Positions 7,866 to 41,914 of a DNA stretch of 64,000 nucleotides are shown here, piece by piece. The translations under genes were made by a program, and so were the position numbers. Location: the NCBI RefSeq assembly GCF_007860135.1, contig NZ_SJPV01000005.1, forward strand, positions 109,885 through 173,884, given 5' to 3'. Every line of letters starts with the position of its first letter. Within the stretch, counting starts at the first letter, position 1. The notes under the pieces were generated by a model, which did not search any database, was not told the origin of the DNA, and was given only the letters and a program-made list of their open reading frames with translations. This stretch comes from Novipirellula artificiosorum. Lineage in GTDB: Bacteria > Planctomycetota > Planctomycetia > Pirellulales > Pirellulaceae.

Positions 7866-9440
7866 TCAGGCGACCCAATCGCGTTTTCGAGTGAAATCGG
7901 GATCGTCCAAAATGCCCGTCAGCAAATTCGCGTTTTCGACCACTTGATAGTCGAACATTCCGACACAAATGAAATCGGCACCGTTTTCAAAGGCGTATCG
8001 GAATCCCTGCTTCGGATGGACGGCCCCTGCGGCCAACGTCTTGAACGCGATCCAAGGTTTGTCCAGCGTTTCCATGTAAGCAATCGTCTGTTCCGGTGTG
8101 CGCTCCCAATAATTATCCACCGAGTAGTTGTCGATAATCATCTTGTCCTTTTCCTGCTCGGGTTTCCACGACCAGTAATCACGACTGTGTAGCGTCTTCA
8201 TGTAAAAGTCAGCGCCGACTTGATGCTGCTCGGCACCTTGAACCGTCGACAACTCATGGCCCGCCAATCCGGCCGGGACCCCTTTGCTCTTGATGTAGTC
8301 AAGCACCTCGCCGATCAACTCGAATTTCCCCGCTCGCGCCCATTCATCTCCCACATTGCCCATGATCATCGCCGCACTGGCACCGTTGTCGATGGCAAAG
8401 TCAATGTTCGTGCGGTAGTCATCTTCCTTTGGATAAGTTGGCGCAACCCACTTCATCTTGCCGCCGCTCTTCCAATACTTGTTCAGCATCGCCACCGGCT
8501 CGGGCCGTGCGCTGACGGCAGTGGCATTGATTCCCGATTGTTCGCACAGCCAAAATGTATCCATCACCTTCGTTTCGGTGAAGTAGTTTTTGAGGAACTG
8601 CGAGATGTAGATCAAATCACGGCTGTGCGCAAAACCGCTAATCAAATTTCCTCCACAAATCATTCGTCCAATTTCAACGTCGCCAAGCTTTCCTGTACCG
8701 AGTCGTCCCATCGGAATGGGTTTGGCAAGCTTTGACAAATCGACTGCATCTTTGACAACGATCGTCGGTGCACTCGTGCCGTCCACAGCACTTGCCAGGT
8801 CAGCCTCTTCGAAACTGCTCCAGCCGTGGCTCTTCGCAACGGCAAAAGCAAATCCGCCAAGGACAGGCAGCGAGACGAGGTTCTTCATCAAGGCGCGCCT
8901 TTGGATCAACGAATCCGCCGGTGTATGGTTCATCTCCGCTGGGACGTCCACTCGCTTGAACCAACTCCATGAGAATGCTGGCAACAGCTTGCCGAGCCCG
9001 TAATAACAGGAGGCCGGAATCGCTGCGATCACACACAAAACCACGATCTCAATCAGATTCTTGTTGACGATCAAATAGTGTCCCTCGCTTGCATATCCGA
9101 CACTGGTTCCCATTAAAGGTGGATTGGCAAGATAGTACAGGCCAATCAACACCGCGCCGGCGATCGCGGCAGCCCGTGTGAAGACCCCGGTCATGATGCA
9201 CAGGCCAATCAGCGTCAATGCCGCAATGTTGAGGTAGTCGGTTACTGTTAAAAGCAGCGGAGACTCGGCAAGACCGTGAAAGACGTTCGCCAGGGGACCT
9301 TGTGCGTTGGCTAGATAGCCCGCGGAGGTCCAATTGGAATCAAGTAGTTTTGCGACTCCTTCGTAGAGCAAGTGCCAGCCAACAAGAAGATTGAGCAGGG
9401 TCAGAAGGGGACGAATTCGGCGGAGCGTAGTAGGGTCCAT
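7866..9440 (-). CDS. DoxX-like membrane domain fused to exported TIM-barrel domain
   Basis: A 524-residue two-part protein. Residues 1 to about 150 have four hydrophobic segments in a DoxX-like pattern (LLVGWHLLYEGVAKLLDSNW, and SVGYASEGHYLIVNKNLIE near the end). Residues about 178-205 carry RRALMKNLVSLPVLGGFAFA, a Tat-like or signal-anchor segment in the middle of the chain. The rest is a TIM-barrel-like domain resembling aldo/keto-reductase-like or isomerase-like proteins (VEIGRMICGGNLISGFAHSR, FWLCEQSGINATAVSARPEP, DFICVGMFDYQVVENANLLT). The barrel is therefore predicted to face the periplasm, attached to a DoxX unit that may move electrons or quinols. Substrate unknown. It is convergent with cysNC, with 25 bases between stops, and its 5' side faces a repeat-rich gap. 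Confidence 0.75.
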   Translation of the reverse strand: MDPTTLRRIRPLLTLLNLLVGWHLLYEGVAKLLDSNWTSAGYLANAQGPLANVFHGLAESPLLLTVTDYLNIAALTLIGLCIMTGVFTRAAAIAGAVLIGLYYLANPPLMGTSVGYASEGHYLIVNKNLIEIVVLCVIAAIPASCYYGLGKLLPAFSWSWFKRVDVPAEMNHTPADSLIQRRALMKNLVSLPVLGGFAFAVAKSHGWSSFEEADLASAVDGTSAPTIVVKDAVDLSKLAKPIPMGRLGTGKLGDVEIGRMICGGNLISGFAHSRDLIYISQFLKNYFTETKVMDTFWLCEQSGINATAVSARPEPVAMLNKYWKSGGKMKWVAPTYPKEDDYRTNIDFAIDNGASAAMIMGNVGDEWARAGKFELIGEVLDYIKSKGVPAGLAGHELSTVQGAEQHQVGADFYMKTLHSRDYWSWKPEQEKDKMIIDNYSVDNYWERTPEQTIAYMETLDKPWIAFKTLAAGAVHPKQGFRYAFENGADFICVGMFDYQVVENANLLTGILDDPDFTRKRDWVA

Positions 9441-34133: not shown

Positions 34134-37100
34134 ATGAGATTTCGCAGGCTACTGAAAAGCAGAAGAAGTGCCAACAAGGCCAGACGCGCTCAGTCACGCC
34201 AGCTTCGGCGGACCCCTTTTCGCCGGATGCTGCAAGAACACCTCGAAGAACGCGCACTGCTTGCAAGTTGGTCGGGAACACTGACCTCAGACACCACGTG
34301 GACCAATGGCGAGGTTCATCAAATTACCGACGACCTCCAAGTGGCAGCAGACGTAACGCTGACCATCGCGCCCGGCGCCATCGTCAAGTTCCGGCATGCC
34401 AACGTCGAGCTGTTTGTTGACGGAACGCTTCATGCCGAGGGGACGCCAACCGCACCAATTGTCTTCACATCAATCCATGACGATGTCGGCGAAGATACGA
34501 ACGCCAATGGAAATGAGACGGCGCCTGCGGCAGGCAATTGGGCAAGAATTGTCGTCAACGGGTCTGCAGTCATCTCAAATACCGACGTTCGATACGGTGG
34601 ATATTACTATGGTGCGATGGTGCTTGGCAAGAATGGTGATTTGACCTTATCCAGCAGCTCGCTCAGCCACAGTGCCTTCGATGCACTACGTTTGGAAGGC
34701 ACCGACGCGACGTTAGTCAACAATTCCTTTACGGCCAATGCCGATGCTGCGATAAGTATGGACTTGAATTCAAATCCGACCATGAACGGCGTTGCACTGA
34801 CCGCGAACGGCATCAATGGATTGCAAGTCGATGCGGGGGTATTGAAAAGAAGCTTGGCGTGGGACGATCCGGACATCGTCTATTGGCTCGATGATGACAT
34901 CTCCGTCCCCGTCGGCATGTCGTTAGAGATCGGCGCAGGGCAAATTGTCAAACCGTCCAACGCCAATGCCGAATTGCATGTCAATGGACGATTGGCGATC
35001 AACGGAACCGAGGCGGCACCGGTCGTCTTCACCTCGTTTGCCGATGACTCTCGCGGCGGCGATACCAATGGTGACGGCGACACCTCGGTGCCGGCGCCTG
35101 GCAACTGGGCTCGGATTCAAGTGCTTGATGAAAGTGCCGGCAACACCGTCAACTACTTCGAGGCTCACTATGGTGGCTACTATTACGGGCATGCTTTGCG
35201 AGCGGTCCAAACCGGGCTCATGATCTCCAACAGCACCTTTACCCGTTCGCAACACGATGCAGTACGACTAGAAGGCACCGACGCAACGTTGACCAACAAT
35301 GCCTTCACGACGAATGCCGATGCCGCGATGAGTATGGACTTGAATTCAAATCCGACCATCAACGGCGTTGCACTGACCGTAAACGGCATCAATGGATTGC
35401 AAGTCGATGCGGGGGTATTGAAAAGAAGCTTGGCGTGGGACGATCCGGACATCGTCTATTGGCTCGATGATGACATCTCCGTTCCCGTCGGCATGTCGCT
35501 AGAGATCGGCGCGGGACAGATCGTCAAGCCGTCCAATGCCAATGCCGAATTGCATGTCAATGGAAGTTTGGCGATCAACGGAACCGAGGCGGCACCGGTC
35601 GTCTTCACCTCGTTTGCCGATGACACTCGTGGCGGCGATACCAACGGAGACGGCGACACGTCGGCACCGGCGCCCGGCAACTGGGCTCGGATTCAAATGC
35701 TTGATGAAAGTGCCGGCAACACCCTCAACTACTTCGAGGCTCACTATGGTGGCTACTATTACGGGCATACGCTGCGAGCGGCAGCAACCGATCTGGCGAT
35801 CTCCAACAGCACCTTTACCACTTCACAATCTGGTGCGGTGCGACTGGAAGCGACCGACGCGATTCTGAACAGCAATGCCTTTCTCGATAATGGCGACGCT
35901 GCGGTCAGCATGGATCTCAGTTCAAACCCCGATATTGACGGGGTGACGCTTTCGGGAAATCGGATCAACGGGCTGCAGGTGAACGGCGGATCGCTGACGA
36001 AGGATCTCGTTTGGGACGATCCGGACATCGTCTATTGGCTCGATAATGATATCTTCGTCCCGGTTGGCATGTCGCTAGAGATCGGCGCGGGCCAAATCGT
36101 CAAACCGTCCAATGCCAATGTCGAACTGCATGTCAATGGAAGCTTGGCGATCAACGGAACCGAGGCGGCACCGGTCGTCTTCACCTCGTTTGCCGATGAC
36201 TCTCGCGGCGGCGATACCAATGGAGACGGCGACGCGTCGGCACCGGCGCCCGGCAACTGGGCTCGGATCGATATTCGCTCGGGGAGCGGCGACCATGTGA
36301 TTGATAATGCGGTGTTCGAATATGGAGGCTACTATTACGGCGGGATGTTGACCATCGACAACGCATCCGTTGAGGTGAGTCGGTCGTGGTTGAGCCATTC
36401 TGCATCCGATGCCGTTCGCTCGAGTGGCGGAGCGAGTGCCGAACTGACCAACAATGTCCTGGTCAACAACACGAACCGAGGGATCCTCGCTACCTCTCAG
36501 TCTCATATCAAAGCGATCAACAACACCCTTGACGGCAATTCTTATGGAGCGGTTTCAAGTGAAACGGGCAGCAGTATCGAACTCTTCAATAATGTGATCA
36601 CTTACCATCGCGTTTGCGGGGTTGCGGTTGATTCAGGTGCTGGTGTGGTGATGGCGTACAACAACATTTACAATCCTGCCTCAACCAACGTGATTGGCGC
36701 CGAGGATCCGATCGACGTGAACGGCAATCTCTCACGCGACCCACTCTTTTTTAGCCGCGGTCGCACGGGGGACTATCGGCCATTTGCGGGATCCCCCCTG
36801 ATCGATGCTGGTCTCAGCACTGGAAATGCCTTTGGGGTCACTCCACCGGCAACCGACCATTCTGGCAATCCACGTTACGATGATCCTGGAATCGAGCCGA
36901 ATGTTGGTGAAGGGCTCGTAAAGTACTATGACATTGGCGCGTTCGAGCGACAGATGGTCTCTGACCCAGAGGCTGATTTACAGATCCAGCTGATGGCAGC
37001 ACCCTCTAACGTTATGTCCGGTGAAGAAGTTACGTTGACGTGGAAGGTATCCAATCTTGGCCCCAATACGGTCACGCATTCTTGGATCGATTCGATCGAC

Positions 37101-40100
37101 TTGATCGGTACCCCAACCGGTCAACCGGCCCGCCGGGTGCTGGAAGTTGTGCACGCCGATGGGCTTGGCGTTGGCCAGAGCTATACGAAACAGGCCACCA
37201 TCATGGTGCCGGGCTTCTGGTCGGGTGACTACATTTGGAGAGTATCCACCGACGCGAGGTATCAGGTATTTGAGGCGCAACAAGAACAGAACAATGTTGT
37301 GGAATCATCGATCGTCGCACTCGACGTTCCCGAGTTGCTCGTAGGGCAAACGATATCCTCAGCCTTCACGACGGAAGGGAATCAACAGTGGTTCCGCATT
37401 CCCGTGACCGCCGGCCAGAACCTACGTGTGACGCTCGATCGAGAGGGAGCCTTGGGGAGGACGGAACTGTTCGTTGGGCATGAATATGCGCCGAATCGTG
37501 ACAGTTTCGATATCGCTAGCAATCGCTTTGGAGGGCCGGATGCAAATCTTGATATTGGAAACGCAGCTGCTGGCAATTATTACGTTTTAGCACAAGAGAC
37601 ATCGTTTACCGAGGGTCCCATTGCGTTTGAACTCTCGGCGGAATTACTCGACTTTGCCGTGGATCATGTGAACCCCACCCGCGGTGGCAATACGGGAAAC
37701 GTTACCGTCAAAATCGCGGGGAACGCAATCCCGAGTGATACGACGGCGCAATTGATCGATGCCCGCGGTCACGTCATCGATTCGGTCGCCACTCATTGGA
37801 TCGACTCCTCTCAGATCATGGCGACCTTTGATCTCAGTGCCGCGATGTCCGGTCCTGCCGAATTGAAGTTGATCAGCGGCGGCATTGAAAAAGAGTTGGC
37901 AGACGCGTTCACGGTACAAGATGGAGGCGACGCTGGCTATTTCTCGCGAATCACCGGCCCCAGCTTCATGCGAGTCGACCGCCAGAATGAATTCACTGTG
38001 ACATGGGGCAATCGTGGAACCGTTGACGCCCCTGTCCATTTGGCGTACTTCGAGACGACAGGCGTCTCCAGCCTAAGCCTGACTCCGGGCGGCCCGCAAA
38101 TTGACGGCGGCCACATGTTTTTGGCGATGTCGCCAGATTCCTTAGCCTCAGTGATCCCACCAGGAAACGAACAGTCATTCAAAGTCTATGCCTCAACCAG
38201 TGAGCCAGGTGATTTTAGTCTTCGACTTCGAACGATCCCCATCACCGCGACGGAGCTTCTCGCAGTGCAAATCGATTGGGATCGTATTTCCTCAGTTGCA
38301 AAACCACCTTCATTGACGGAGCTGCATTGGAGCCAATTATTTGAACAATTGCGTGCTCAACTCGGAGCAACTTGGGCATCAATGCTTCAGATCGTTGCAG
38401 ACAACTCCTTGCAGATACTACAGCAACCGGCCGGAACGGTCGCGACTCTGAAGCCGGGGATCGACCTTCGCCCCGGGTTACTTGTGGAGATTGGCAAGGC
38501 GTACGAGGCACTCGGTTGGACGCCGACCGATACCGCTCTTGGACAACTTGCGGACCGAGTTGCTGGCGAGGCAGCCTCACGACCGGGCCAAGTACGTGGG
38601 CTTGTGGTAACGCTGCAGGATTACAAGGGAAAAGAGCCGAACTTGCTGAGCACAAAGAAGGACATGTCCAACATCCGTAGCTTCTTTCGGTCCACACCGG
38701 AAATCTCGGAAAGCAACTTCCAGTTCTATTCGGATGCCTTATCGGCTCCACCACCACGCGAGACGACCATCACAGCTCAACAGTTGGAGGCAGCCGTCAA
38801 GTCGCTTGCCGACAGCAGCCAAACCGACGATCAACTGCTTCTGTTCTTCAGCATGCACGGCGTGGACCAAGCCGACCCCAACAACCGCAGCAGCGGTCTG
38901 GTGACGAATAGCGGAACCTTCTTTTATGAAGACCTGCTAAAAAGCCTGGCTGGGGCCAAGGCAAAGAACATTGTCATCGTCGTGGACGCATGCTACGCAC
39001 ACGCGCTGATTCGTCGCTTGGAGTATTACACGGACGTGCCCGAAGACGTCGAGAAGCGAATCACAATTGTCACCGCGAGTGACCAGGGACAGATGTCACA
39101 ATCGCGTACGGGAACCGGTGGATTCTTCACCAGTAAGTTCTTAGAGGAGCTTCTGGATCTTGAAAATGATCGGGCCAGCCGCGGAGGAAATTCAGATGGC
39201 AGGGTCTCCGTGAAAGAAGCGTTGAAAGGCGTTGGCAAGAACGTCGGAGGCTGGTTTGCCCCGTATCAGAACCCCAAAATAAACGCGGACGCGCCAGATG
39301 TCGTCCTATACGATCCCGCCGGAGAGTCCAAGGACGAAATCGAGGATGAACTCGAAGACGATGCCCCGACATTGTTTGAGCGAATCACCGGAGGAAACAT
39401 CGAATTTCGCGGACAATCCGGGCGACCACGCGACCCGAATGATAAGGCATCTTCCACGATCAATGATGAAACGATGGGCTGGATCTCATCGAACCAACCG
39501 ATCACGTACACCATTCACTTTGAGAACCTTCCTGACCCCAACCTGCCGCCTGAATTGACCCTGCCTGCGCAGGAAGTCGTGGTCACGGATCACTTGTCAA
39601 CAAACTTGGATTGGTCCAGTTTGGAACTCGGCTCCATCGGATTTGGCGACACGGTGGTCCCTCTCGAAGCGGGGCAATCAAGCTACCAGGGCAATACGTC
39701 TGTTTCCGCGGATCCCTACCCCGTACACATCAATGTAGACTTTGATACCGAAACGGGGCTCTTGACTTGGCGGATGCAATCATTTGATGAGCAGACGCAA
39801 CTCTATCCGGCAGACCCATTTGCCGGTTTTCTTCCGGTCAATGACGCATCACGTCAAGGTGAGGGTTTTGTTACATTTACCATTCGGCCAAAACAAACCC
39901 TTGTCGATCGAGATCAAATTCAGAATACAGCAGCCATTGTTTTCGACACCAACGACCCGATCATCACGAACACGGTGACGAATACAGTCGATGATGTCGG
40001 GCCGGAGAGTTCTGTTTCGGTGTTGCCCGAGGCATTTGGAACGGCAAGCTTCACCGTACAATGGGGCGGAAGTGACGTCGGAGACGGTTCAGGGATAGCA

Positions 40101-40847
40101 ACGTATGACATCTATGTTTCTCAAAACGATGGACCCTTTGAGCCGCTTTGGATGAGTTCCACCGAGACAAGTCGCACGTTCACCGGCGAGTCGGGTAACA
40201 CCTATGGTTTTGCAAGTGTTGCCCAAGACCGTGTCGGAAATGTCGAGGTGGCGCCAACGAATGCGGATGCAAGAACGCTCGTGATGATTGGTGCATGGAG
40301 AAACCCGACCAATCCCTTCGATGTTGACAACAGCGGTGATGTGACTGCCTATGACGCACTCCTCGTCATTAACGAGTTGTCGGACAGTCTCGTTCACGAC
40401 CGTGAAACGGAACTTCTCATACCGCTTCGTCCCGAAGGCTATCACGATCGTTACTACGACGTGGAACCCGATGGAAAGTTGACGGCGCTGGATGCACTTC
40501 GTGTAATCAACGAGCTTTCCATTCCACTCGTCGATCCGTCCCAAGTCTCAGCAGAATCGGTCGCTCTTGCCACAGTTGCGGGAATCCTGACACCTACGGT
40601 TGATCGCCGGATCGACGTCAAGAGGTCAGAGTCGTCTATCGCGGAAATCCCTCGTGTCGCGAGCTGGCAACTTTCTAGCGAATGGCAACGTTACACGAAG
40701 ACTACGCGGGATCGATTGTTCGAACGGGCCCCACTAATGGAAAGCAAGAGCGAGAGCGAGACGGAACAGCCCGTCTTCGACGAAATGCTCTCGACTTTGG
40801 CAAAGGACGTCTCCCAACACTGGTTTTCTGAACTCTCTACAACTTAG
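34134..40847 (+). CDS. Giant LEPR-XLL protein: beta-helix, CARDB, caspase-like, dockerin
   Basis: A 2237-residue exported protein. The basic start ends in LEERALLAS, a planctomycete LEPR-XLL-like export element. Residues about 50-900 form right-handed beta-helix repeats, including near-identical 192-residue units. A CARDB domain (about 945-1055; ADLQIQLMAAPSNVMSGEEV) and a PPC-like domain (about 1070-1170) follow. Residues about 1485-1720 have a caspase/metacaspase-like fold: RGLVVTLQDYKGKEPNL, His1575 in LFFSMHGVDQ and Cys1620 in IVIVVDACYAHAL, the expected His-Cys dyad. Afterwards come a conserved adhesion-type domain (about 1780-1950), an Fn3-like domain, and a dockerin-like pair (about 2063-2130; FDVDNSGDVTAYDALLVINE and KLTALDALRVINELS). 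It is likely displayed at the cell surface. Whether the peptidase is active, and on what, is unknown. Confidence 0.85.
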   Translation: MRFRRLLKSRRSANKARRAQSRQLRRTPFRRMLQEHLEERALLASWSGTLTSDTTWTNGEVHQITDDLQVAADVTLTIAPGAIVKFRHANVELFVDGTLHAEGTPTAPIVFTSIHDDVGEDTNANGNETAPAAGNWARIVVNGSAVISNTDVRYGGYYYGAMVLGKNGDLTLSSSSLSHSAFDALRLEGTDATLVNNSFTANADAAISMDLNSNPTMNGVALTANGINGLQVDAGVLKRSLAWDDPDIVYWLDDDISVPVGMSLEIGAGQIVKPSNANAELHVNGRLAINGTEAAPVVFTSFADDSRGGDTNGDGDTSVPAPGNWARIQVLDESAGNTVNYFEAHYGGYYYGHALRAVQTGLMISNSTFTRSQHDAVRLEGTDATLTNNAFTTNADAAMSMDLNSNPTINGVALTVNGINGLQVDAGVLKRSLAWDDPDIVYWLDDDISVPVGMSLEIGAGQIVKPSNANAELHVNGSLAINGTEAAPVVFTSFADDTRGGDTNGDGDTSAPAPGNWARIQMLDESAGNTLNYFEAHYGGYYYGHTLRAAATDLAISNSTFTTSQSGAVRLEATDAILNSNAFLDNGDAAVSMDLSSNPDIDGVTLSGNRINGLQVNGGSLTKDLVWDDPDIVYWLDNDIFVPVGMSLEIGAGQIVKPSNANVELHVNGSLAINGTEAAPVVFTSFADDSRGGDTNGDGDASAPAPGNWARIDIRSGSGDHVIDNAVFEYGGYYYGGMLTIDNASVEVSRSWLSHSASDAVRSSGGASAELTNNVLVNNTNRGILATSQSHIKAINNTLDGNSYGAVSSETGSSIELFNNVITYHRVCGVAVDSGAGVVMAYNNIYNPASTNVIGAEDPIDVNGNLSRDPLFFSRGRTGDYRPFAGSPLIDAGLSTGNAFGVTPPATDHSGNPRYDDPGIEPNVGEGLVKYYDIGAFERQMVSDPEADLQIQLMAAPSNVMSGEEVTLTWKVSNLGPNTVTHSWIDSIDLIGTPTGQPARRVLEVVHADGLGVGQSYTKQATIMVPGFWSGDYIWRVSTDARYQVFEAQQEQNNVVESSIVALDVPELLVGQTISSAFTTEGNQQWFRIPVTAGQNLRVTLDREGALGRTELFVGHEYAPNRDSFDIASNRFGGPDANLDIGNAAAGNYYVLAQETSFTEGPIAFELSAELLDFAVDHVNPTRGGNTGNVTVKIAGNAIPSDTTAQLIDARGHVIDSVATHWIDSSQIMATFDLSAAMSGPAELKLISGGIEKELADAFTVQDGGDAGYFSRITGPSFMRVDRQNEFTVTWGNRGTVDAPVHLAYFETTGVSSLSLTPGGPQIDGGHMFLAMSPDSLASVIPPGNEQSFKVYASTSEPGDFSLRLRTIPITATELLAVQIDWDRISSVAKPPSLTELHWSQLFEQLRAQLGATWASMLQIVADNSLQILQQPAGTVATLKPGIDLRPGLLVEIGKAYEALGWTPTDTALGQLADRVAGEAASRPGQVRGLVVTLQDYKGKEPNLLSTKKDMSNIRSFFRSTPEISESNFQFYSDALSAPPPRETTITAQQLEAAVKSLADSSQTDDQLLLFFSMHGVDQADPNNRSSGLVTNSGTFFYEDLLKSLAGAKAKNIVIVVDACYAHALIRRLEYYTDVPEDVEKRITIVTASDQGQMSQSRTGTGGFFTSKFLEELLDLENDRASRGGNSDGRVSVKEALKGVGKNVGGWFAPYQNPKINADAPDVVLYDPAGESKDEIEDELEDDAPTLFERITGGNIEFRGQSGRPRDPNDKASSTINDETMGWISSNQPITYTIHFENLPDPNLPPELTLPAQEVVVTDHLSTNLDWSSLELGSIGFGDTVVPLEAGQSSYQGNTSVSADPYPVHINVDFDTETGLLTWRMQSFDEQTQLYPADPFAGFLPVNDASRQGEGFVTFTIRPKQTLVDRDQIQNTAAIVFDTNDPIITNTVTNTVDDVGPESSVSVLPEAFGTASFTVQWGGSDVGDGSGIATYDIYVSQNDGPFEPLWMSSTETSRTFTGESGNTYGFASVAQDRVGNVEVAPTNADARTLVMIGAWRNPTNPFDVDNSGDVTAYDALLVINELSDSLVHDRETELLIPLRPEGYHDRYYDVEPDGKLTALDALRVINELSIPLVDPSQVSAESVALATVAGILTPTVDRRIDVKRSESSIAEIPRVASWQLSSEWQRYTKTTRDRLFERAPLMESKSESETEQPVFDEMLSTLAKDVSQHWFSELSTT
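34857..36290 (+). repeat. 576-bp tandem coding repeats in giant gene
   Basis: Three units start at 34857, 35433 and 36009, exactly 576 bases (192 codons) apart. The first two are nearly identical in DNA; the third is shorter before it diverges. A fourth, weaker relative precedes them (from about 34280). Such close DNA identity suggests recent duplication or gene conversion and allows unit loss or gain. Confidence 0.9.
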
Positions 40848-41011
40848 CAGCGGACCATCCACCAAGGGCGTCATGCATCTCACCCAAGATCCTTCAACCC
40901 CGTAAGTCTGGCGACATCCCGTGCCGTGTGCGATACTGATTGTTTCGTCGTTGCATCGAGGGCATGCGATTGACGCCGGTCCTATAACCGTGCAAACAGG
41001 AATTGGAGACG

Positions 41012-41914
41012 ATGCTTAACAAGTATTTCAACTGCTTCTTTGCCGGGGTGGCGTTCTTTTCGGTTCCGTCGTTTGTGGGGGCGGGTGAACGTGTGCCGGC
41101 CGGTAGGGCGTTTGAAATCCCAGAAGGGCCCGAGGTTTTGGTAGACGATTGGCATGGTTATCGACGTCACTCGTTTGTGGTTGACGGATGTCCGGCATTT
41201 GTTGTTGAGCCAAAGGAACCAATGCTGGGCAATCCGTGGATCTGGTCGATGATGTTTCCAGATAGTTTTTACAGACGGGTACCGGCACATGCGTTGTTGG
41301 GCAAAGGGTTCTATTACGCATACATCGACACCCAAAACCGTTTCGGGTGTCCCGATGCCCTTGAACATTGCGATGCCTTCTATGCTTTCTTGACCGACCG
41401 TGGTCTCTCAAAACGTGTCACGCTCAGCGCCCTCAGCCGAGGTGGACTCTATGCTTATGGCTGGGCGAGACAAAACGCGGAGAAGACCCTTTGCATCTAT
41501 GCCGACGCTGCGGTGTGCGATTTCAAAAGCTGGCCTGGCGGCAAAATGGGCAAAGGCATGGGCAACAAGCAGAACTGGGAGGAGCTAAAGAAGTGCTATC
41601 GTTTCCCGGGCGATGCCGAAGCACTGGCCTGGCCACATAACCCCGTCGACAGCCTGCAACCACTGGCCGATGCGAAGATTCCGCTGATTCATGTGACTGG
41701 CGATTCCGACCGGACGGTTCCGATGGAAGAAAACACCGAGATCGTCCAGCGGCGGTATGAAGCTCTCGGCGGTGATATCACCGTGTTTCGAAAACCGGGT
41801 GGCGATCATCACCCGCATGGACTCGATGACCCTGCGCCGGTCATCGAATTGATTTTGCACCACTACGAGCACGAACGCAAGAATGCGACGCCGAGAAGCT
41901 CTTCCAAAGAGTGA
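41012..41914 (+). CDS. Secreted alpha/beta-hydrolase
   Basis: A 300-residue protein with a signal-like start (YFNCFFAGVAFFSVPSFVGAG). It has an alpha/beta-hydrolase fold with nucleophile elbow LSALSRGGLYAYGW, an acid in HVTGDSDRTVPMEEN, and a histidine in KPGGDHHPHGLDDPAP. The N-terminal part resembles planctomycete prolyl-oligopeptidase-like or esterase hydrolases (DDWHGYRRHSFVVDG). ATG 41012 follows GGAG three bases upstream; a TTG nine bases earlier is possible. Its place between the giant surface protein and the cytochrome, within a carbohydrate island, suggests an ester-cleaving accessory enzyme. Substrate unknown. Confidence 0.8.
   Translation: MLNKYFNCFFAGVAFFSVPSFVGAGERVPAGRAFEIPEGPEVLVDDWHGYRRHSFVVDGCPAFVVEPKEPMLGNPWIWSMMFPDSFYRRVPAHALLGKGFYYAYIDTQNRFGCPDALEHCDAFYAFLTDRGLSKRVTLSALSRGGLYAYGWARQNAEKTLCIYADAAVCDFKSWPGGKMGKGMGNKQNWEELKKCYRFPGDAEALAWPHNPVDSLQPLADAKIPLIHVTGDSDRTVPMEENTEIVQRRYEALGGDITVFRKPGGDHHPHGLDDPAPVIELILHHYEHERKNATPRSSSKE

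Follow-up and report, generated by a model that had tools for sequence, protein, structure and literature searches.

What does a caspase-like domain do inside a giant, apparently adhesive protein of a planctomycete? The question is raised by a 64,000-nt stretch of Novipirellula artificiosorum DNA (hereafter the window; contig NZ_SJPV01000005.1, positions 109,885 to 173,884), in which the initial annotation placed a metacaspase-type pair, His1575 and Cys1620, within a large adhesin-like protein. The positions, the intact dyad and the named flanking domains were all borne out by Pfam and by alignment (Table 1). The Pfam scan gave Beta_helix in four stretches (E 1.3e-24), CARDB (E 3.1e-7), Peptidase_C14 at residues 1490-1677 (PF00656; E 2.2e-12, with 47.6 bits against a curated cut-off of 21.4), DUF7619 in two stretches (E 5.5e-21) and Dockerin_1 (E 2.7e-9); a weak PPC match at residues 1085-1152 (E 0.014) fell under the cut-off. 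The NCBIfam model caspase_w_EACC1 (NF047832) scored 31.7 bits, under its curated cut-off of 140. Since the frame stays open upstream to 34113 (2244 codons), the exact start codon is not fixed. The domain is the single C14 match of its own genome, and 75 of 149 genomes of the same family hold at least one such match.

Table 1. Features of the gene and its product. Positions are those of the window.
Feature	Residues	Position	Strand	Basis or remark
Whole gene	2237 aa	34134..40847	+	open frame
N-terminal motif EHLEERALLA, behind Arg/Lys-rich leader	35-44	34236..34265	+	possible export signal
Beta-helix region, internal repeats	46-855	34269..36698	+	Pfam
CARDB domain	947-1056	36972..37301	+	Pfam
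Conserved N scaffold; cargo slot starts at its end	1150-1439	37581..38450	+	comparison of relatives
Cargo: metacaspase-like Peptidase_C14 domain	1488-1715	38595..39278	+	Pfam, model, structure match
His of the catalytic dyad	1575	38856..38858	+	alignment
Asp-Ala-Cys: dyad Cys and Asp at Cys-2	1618-1620	38985..38993	+	alignment
Junction motif FRGQSGRPR, candidate self-cleavage site	1758-1766	39405..39431	+	junction comparison
Conserved C scaffold, begins DPNDK, contains DUF7619	1767-2078	39432..40367	+	Pfam, profile
Dockerin type I domain	2062-2128	40317..40517	+	Pfam

Catalytic residues and fold of the caspase domain

His1575 sits in the sequence FFSMHG and Cys1620, one of only two cysteines in the protein, in VVDACYA. 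Caspases occupying the same place in related proteins (slot caspases, described below) were aligned with other planctomycete caspase domains, 40 domains in all, and His and Cys are retained in 7 of 7 and 33 of 33, respectively; loss of both residues in homologues, raised at the outset as the objection to a peptidase, is not seen in any of the seven slot caspases. Because 30 of the 33 comparison caspases came from the best Pfam scorers among the family genomes (the other three from a single-query search), this conservation is biased upward. The Asp at Cys-2 is likewise retained in all 33 and in six of the seven slot caspases, with Gly in its place in the protein of genome G128. When six slot caspases were aligned, the other five being 14-36% identical to the window domain, five columns were invariant; that His and Cys are two of these five among such diverged sequences points to selection for catalysis.

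Asp1618, by its position two residues before the cysteine, is the counterpart of Asp211 of TbMCA2, whose catalytic Cys we take to be residue 213. According to the available text of PMC4357240, metacaspases strictly prefer Arg or Lys, and the S1 pocket proposed for TbMCA2 includes Asp211 together with Asp95 of the first helix. Asp1510 of the window protein is located in the first core helix of the model described below. The Asp at Cys-2 is a predicted acidic S1 residue, as in the metacaspases that cleave after Arg or Lys, often in a calcium-dependent manner.

AlphaFold2, run on the domain alone with an alignment of only three rows, gave a weak model (mean pLDDT 47.6, pTM 0.51). With this model Foldseek returned caspases, MALT1, legumain and metacaspase at probability 1.00. 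The top VIA-align match was Arabidopsis metacaspase-4 (Z 16.1; 207 residues aligned, rmsd 3.3, with the model at pLDDT 47.6), and legumains, GPI transamidase and fungal metacaspases followed at Z about 14. The order of strands and helices in the model is that of caspases, with His ending strand 127-135 and Cys directly after strand 172-177, as in clan CD. As regards strand placement and fold, the structural check proposed with the initial annotation came out in its favour: the dyad residues are predicted to stand at the ends of the β3 and β4 core strands of a fold that matches metacaspases. Compared with PDB sequences, the window caspase had no convincing relative, one chain being matched at E 0.88.

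A domain at planctomycete locus L163 (7128-7859) also lies before a C scaffold and has a caspase-like strand order, apparently without His and Cys. Its HMM matches are at E 0.011 and 0.075, its model has a pLDDT of 43.3, and the metacaspase Yca1 comes first among its structural matches at Z 7.8, tied with unrelated folds.

The domain could also be a binding or structural module that has lost its peptidase function, or nearly so. In the available part of a published survey, the dyad is kept in only 64% of planctomycete metacaspases (PMC3501461), and the possible slot homologue at L163, known from weak matches and a low-scoring model, seemingly lacks both residues. These points are countered by the invariance of His and Cys in six highly diverged slot caspases, and we regard a non-peptidase role as very improbable.

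A conserved slot with alternative cargo

Residues 1151-2085 were compared with 241 genomes of the family and matched in 65. Among the matches listed only that in G136 spans the caspase (42% identity over query residues 3-933 of 935); the others cover one part only, N or C, or both parts with different content between. The domain order sought in other planctomycetes was found, with a close caspase, in G136 (the same protein as locus L154), and it is rare in the sets searched: one match across the caspase listed for 241 family genomes and, in the best 80 loci of the named collection, L154. The variable content lies between an N scaffold that ends near residue 1440 and a C scaffold that begins with DPNDK at 1767. 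Twenty stretches with 21 scaffold proteins were taken first and then 60 more, and each part was given a profile, of 327 positions for N and 319 for C. The N segment adjoining the slot is found again irrespective of cargo, as is the DPN[DE] with which the C part opens; the exception is L087, which is without the last ~100 positions of the N part.

Of the first 21 slots, all but those of L083 and L085 were scanned with Pfam (19 slots), which identified Peptidase_C14 in L066, L070 and L072, Peptidase_C13 in L069, RHS repeats in seven, and CarboxypepD_reg over the cut-off in four and below it in L076. No Pfam family was recognised in the slots of L068, L071 and L084. Of these, the L071 slot reads and aligns as a caspase; those of L068 (6515-7885), from the window's genus, and L084 (6969-8195) hold ~300-360 residues without a Pfam match. 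The cargo of L087 (6164-7000) was considered as NlpC/P60-type on by-eye likeness and rejected, as Pfam gives no match (best E 0.15).

A census of family and named loci comprised 127 rows whose C match starts by profile position 14, most giant proteins falling outside it. Five second gene copies were removed beforehand and a check found no other identical ones; in six further pairs, C-scaffold identity is 95-97%. A full slot was present in 72 rows, the other 55 being 36 without a full N scaffold and 19 with the N scaffold beyond the sequence covered. The 72 slots hold 33 RHS/YD shells and 19 sets of carboxypeptidase-regulatory-like repeats (both classes assigned by pattern expressions), 8 caspase-like domains, 7 propeller-like domains (assigned by eye), 3 short inserts and 2 of no class. 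In one of the eight caspase cases, L086, the frame lacks an N scaffold. The slot is conserved, and the caspase is one among several alternative modules that occur in it.

A scan of named genomes gave 149 scaffold relatives, the best 80 of which were used; these 80 come from Planctomycetota, Verrucomicrobia, Cyanobacteria, Bacteroidetes, Chloroflexi, Armatimonadetes, proteobacterial groups and others. Among the slots covered in the best 80 of 149, caspase cargo was seen in L154 (Planctomycetales HKST-UBA26) and L210. The latter, from a Burkholderiales MAG, carries in the same slot a caspase-like domain with an intact dyad (8361-9437; C14 E 1.1e-5).

Several further observations concern the scaffold family. 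The window's own genome has two adjacent scaffold paralogues at L067 (G000:C3:489000-508900), each of which (3215 and 2748 aa as open frames) holds cargo of the carboxypeptidase-regulatory-like class. Giant proteins with frames of up to 13,995 aa, for example at G000:C25:30385-31185 and G000:C19:40060-40860, contain only the first half of the N part, followed by a gap of ~270-390 aa and the C scaffold; six such gaps that were examined held no known cargo. The scaffold genes L090, L098, L086 and L137 seem to be interrupted by a stop or frameshift, which lies between the two scaffolds, ahead of the C scaffold or inside it. The RHS cargos of L074, L077, L079 and others show, by eye, a variable stretch of ~100 or more residues between the RHS core and the C scaffold, in the place where polymorphic toxins would carry the toxin.

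Exchange of cargo and phylogeny

Replacement of cargo is apparent between G128 and G148, two species of one genus. Their proteins are 63.5% identical over ~1,660 residues up to residue 2623/1966 and, beyond the cargo, 73.8% identical over 420 residues from 3001/2215; the cargos themselves are unlike, with a clan CD peptidase in one and a domain without family in the other. The window protein and that of G087, from the same genus, show identities of 52-61% in residues 101-700 and 58-61% in 1901-2100, whereas in 1201-1600 identity is near the alignment background (20-24%). With G136, from another genus, identity is 35-59% from residue 835 to 2034, caspase included. Treating window/G087 and G128/G148 as orthologous pairs was rejected, since synteny of the scaffold genes shows no conserved neighbourhood: apart from the scaffold gene, a single distant ORF match links the G087 locus to the window, and the loci of G128, G148 and G043 have few shared neighbours, of generic families by eye.

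The architecture is rare in the sets searched, as would be expected of a chance match or of a misassembly that fused unrelated genes. This explanation is opposed by the C14 E-value, by the same order in G136/L154, by the fact that the scaffold genes of G128 (contig about 7.0 Mb) and G148 (about 6.5 Mb) each lie on one contig, and by a G+C content of 0.535 in the caspase part against 0.547 for the gene; we give an artefact a negligible probability.

In a quick tree of 119 C scaffolds, the cargo labels require 25 changes (minimum 3, shuffled mean 53.3), and the caspase label requires four, three of them forced by well-supported branches. The seven slot domains lie on one side of a weakly supported branch (45/12) of the 40-domain caspase tree, and none of 500 shuffles was equally clustered; L035, a non-slot caspase in a putative lipoprotein, is close to the slot group. 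The caspase and scaffold trees disagree in detail. L069 and L210 join the L070 group in the caspase tree (95/84), apart from the window and L066; the N-scaffold tree, built without L069 and L210, unites the window, L066, L070, L071 and L072 (83/94), and the C-scaffold tree places G128 and the Burkholderiales case L210 on other branches. The highest identity of the window caspase within the comparison set is 33%, to another slot caspase.

C scaffold, dockerin and probable export

The available text of an isopeptide-bond survey gives DUF7619 as Lys, Asp, Asn (PMC12617251). By motif and alignment this triad is complete in the window protein (K1771, D1819, N1931), where the bond is predicted. Of 119 scaffolds, 40 have the Lys of DPNDK, which comes with both Asp and Asn in 36; the remaining four are the L070 group, with Glu and Gly instead. 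Asp and Asn are both present in only 2 of the 79 scaffolds without Lys. The full triad is missing in 83 of the 119.

Thirty-four further dockerin matches were found in the window's own genome, and a search of the same genome for cohesin (PF00963) gave no matches at E 0.001, a threshold that might pass over a diverged cohesin. N termini were compared among 15 proteins with an upstream stop or, for the window, a set start. L078, 16 bases from a contig end, was left out, and the 14 N termini, that of the window included, have an Arg/Lys-rich leader followed by an LExRxLLA-like motif, which we take to be a feature of planctomycete secreted proteins. Judged by these sequence features, the protein is probably exported and displayed on the surface.

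The junction motif and a proposed self-cleavage

The 16 residues before DPN were scored for the motif [FVIL][RH]G[EQ]xGR[SP]x. Four of 132 rows without a DPN-type start were dropped, leaving 128, and L154, a copy of L066 with the motif present, was left out of the count. Of 8 caspase proteins, 6 carry the motif; none of the other 119 junctions does, a number that includes four second gene copies and one junction (L171) aligned at the wrong place. Two of the six bearers, L070 and L086, are near-copies with C scaffolds 96.8% identical. The caspase proteins without it are that of G128, in which Cys-2 is Gly, and L210, in which the Asp is kept. Arg1764 is the only basic residue conserved in all six motif bearers and is followed by Pro in the window. 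Proline after Arg often hinders cleavage. FRGQSGRPR is a candidate cleavage site.

The C-scaffold data do not reject a single clade for the six bearers (p-AU 0.396), and the N-scaffold tree unites the five bearers included in it (83/94), so common descent can explain the motif, and the motif-bearing planctomycete versions may be one old lineage. The caspase tree points elsewhere, as it places the L070 group with L069 and L210, neither of which has the motif (95/84). We considered whether the motif proves a joint move of caspase and junction as one cassette, and rejected this, as the scaffold trees allow common descent.

The scaffolds, the slot, the variety of cargo, the dyad and the fold are seen in the sequences and the model. 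Building on these, we tentatively favour, at a little under an even chance, a display protein whose present cargo is a self-cleaving metacaspase of the Arg/Lys type. The conserved N scaffold, here preceded by the beta-helix and CARDB, together with the C scaffold (DPNDK, DUF7619) and the dockerin behind it, would form the display protein, and the slot between the scaffolds would accept alternative modules, the present one being a metacaspase-like cysteine peptidase. This peptidase would be active and cut after Arg or Lys, and its first substrate would be its own chain at FRGQSGRPR, directly before the C scaffold. The cut would detach the N part and the peptidase from the stalk and dockerin, or would remove the stalk and so activate the peptidase. 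In several type II metacaspases a conserved basic residue is critical for activation, according to the available part of PMC4357240. We think it rather unlikely that the scheme extends in full to a plug-in display protein of many phyla, with two fixed scaffold halves and one exchangeable cargo, be it a YD shell, transthyretin-like repeats, a propeller, a metacaspase or another module, in which the metacaspase would cut at the Arg motif before an isopeptide-locked stalk and release the enzyme with its adhesive arm.

Genomic neighbourhood and possible other substrates

The gene lies in a polysaccharide-degradation region (24020-50180 of the window) that contains DUF5060/CBM96, two GH43, GH2 and GH127 genes and then an HlyD-like gene. 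The upstream GH2 gene is in the opposite orientation to the caspase gene. The next gene downstream (41003-41914) has no Pfam match at 1e-5 and by eye resembles a secreted alpha/beta hydrolase. The neighbouring genes give no hint of a partner protein, and among nine neighbours scanned with Pfam no immunity gene was recognised.

Such surroundings (GH2, two GH43, GH127, CBM96) fit an extracellular degradative role, and the slot caspase might be a surface peptidase for other extracellular proteins, whether partner, matrix or food, with the junction motif a mere linker. The intact dyad and Asp at Cys-2 agree with this, and secreted clan CD peptidases that act on other proteins, clostripain and gingipain, are described in the available text of PMC3482391. 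An operon link is lacking, however: the upstream GH2 gene is opposed and the G087 locus shares a single distant ORF match with the window. A peptidase for other proteins also leaves an Arg motif restricted to caspase proteins unexplained. We consider this role rather unlikely.

The slot might instead serve to swap effectors or toxins, in the manner of polymorphic toxins, and the caspase would harm competitor cells. The frequency of RHS shells in the census and the swap seen between G128 and G148 would suit such a function, and polymorphic toxins are reported to include caspase-like domains in two roles, releasing peptidase and toxin (PMC3482391, available text). However, the cargo is internal, with a conserved scaffold after it, and not C-terminal; the nine neighbours include no recognised candidate immunity gene; and the 19 slots with stalk-like repeats do not hold enzymes. 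An effector role is accordingly judged improbable. Nothing found in the analysis points to prey or kin recognition, which the initial annotation also suggested.

Relation to known systems

The window domain shares with metacaspases and bacterial orthocaspases (MEROPS C14B; PF00656) the fold, the His/Cys dyad and two Asp residues, one at Cys-2 and the other, Asp1510, in the model's first core helix; it differs in lying inside a large adhesin-like scaffold and in being far diverged from the comparison set. With polymorphic toxins, as described in the available part of Zhang et al. 2012 (PMC3482391), the scaffold protein shares modules exchanged on a conserved part, caspase-like and RHS modules among them, and a suggested autoproteolysis; here, unlike there, the variable module stands between two scaffolds, a dockerin lies near the end and no immunity gene was recognised. 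DUF7619/DUF11-type isopeptide domains, as far as covered by the available text of PMC12617251, correspond to the DUF7619 with its Lys-Asp-Asn triad in the C scaffold, the difference being that DUF7619 is here the fixed C-terminal holder beside exchangeable cargo. Dockerin type I is shared with cellulosome-type proteins, for which a cohesin partner was not found in the window's own genome. Gingipains and clostripain resemble the proposed protein in the idea of an extracellular clan CD peptidase; gingipains form family C25, another clan CD family than C14, and clostripain belongs to family C11.

The initial annotation called a surface-displayed caspase unusual. This has to be divided: caspase-like domains in secreted and large surface proteins are known, as autoprocessing domains and toxins of polymorphic systems (PMC3482391) and as extracellular metacaspases noted in 2012 (PMC3501461), both according to the available text; an identical arrangement around a close caspase is rare in the sets searched, with G136 its one instance among the matches listed from 241 family genomes. 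No prior description of a two-sided slot was found in the literature searched, from which subscription papers were mostly absent. What appears to be new, from sequence comparison, is a common display scaffold whose alternative cargos include a metacaspase, together with a candidate site of self-cleavage. If the favoured self-cleaving display protein is correct, a bacterial metacaspase moves from the usual frame of cell death to that of a displayed, swappable module, and a testable cleavage site is defined. The slot would also offer a natural series in which the holder stays the same and the cargo is an enzyme, an RHS shell or a set of stalk repeats, making the functions of holder and cargo separable.

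Distribution of the caspase domain

As a single query, the window caspase matched 4 of 392 genomes of the phylum, one of them its own, and a search of viral contigs gave none. An alignment of six slot caspases as query matched 96 of the 392. The only strong profile matches were the window (E 9.9e-80) and G128 (E 8.7e-71), both part of the alignment, and the next was at E 1.5e-18. The C scaffold was found in none of the seven genomes with the next-best profile matches, which indicates another architecture there. G255, a distant planctomycete and one of these seven genomes, encodes six or more caspase domains; the frames that hold five of them measure 1,831-2,854 aa.
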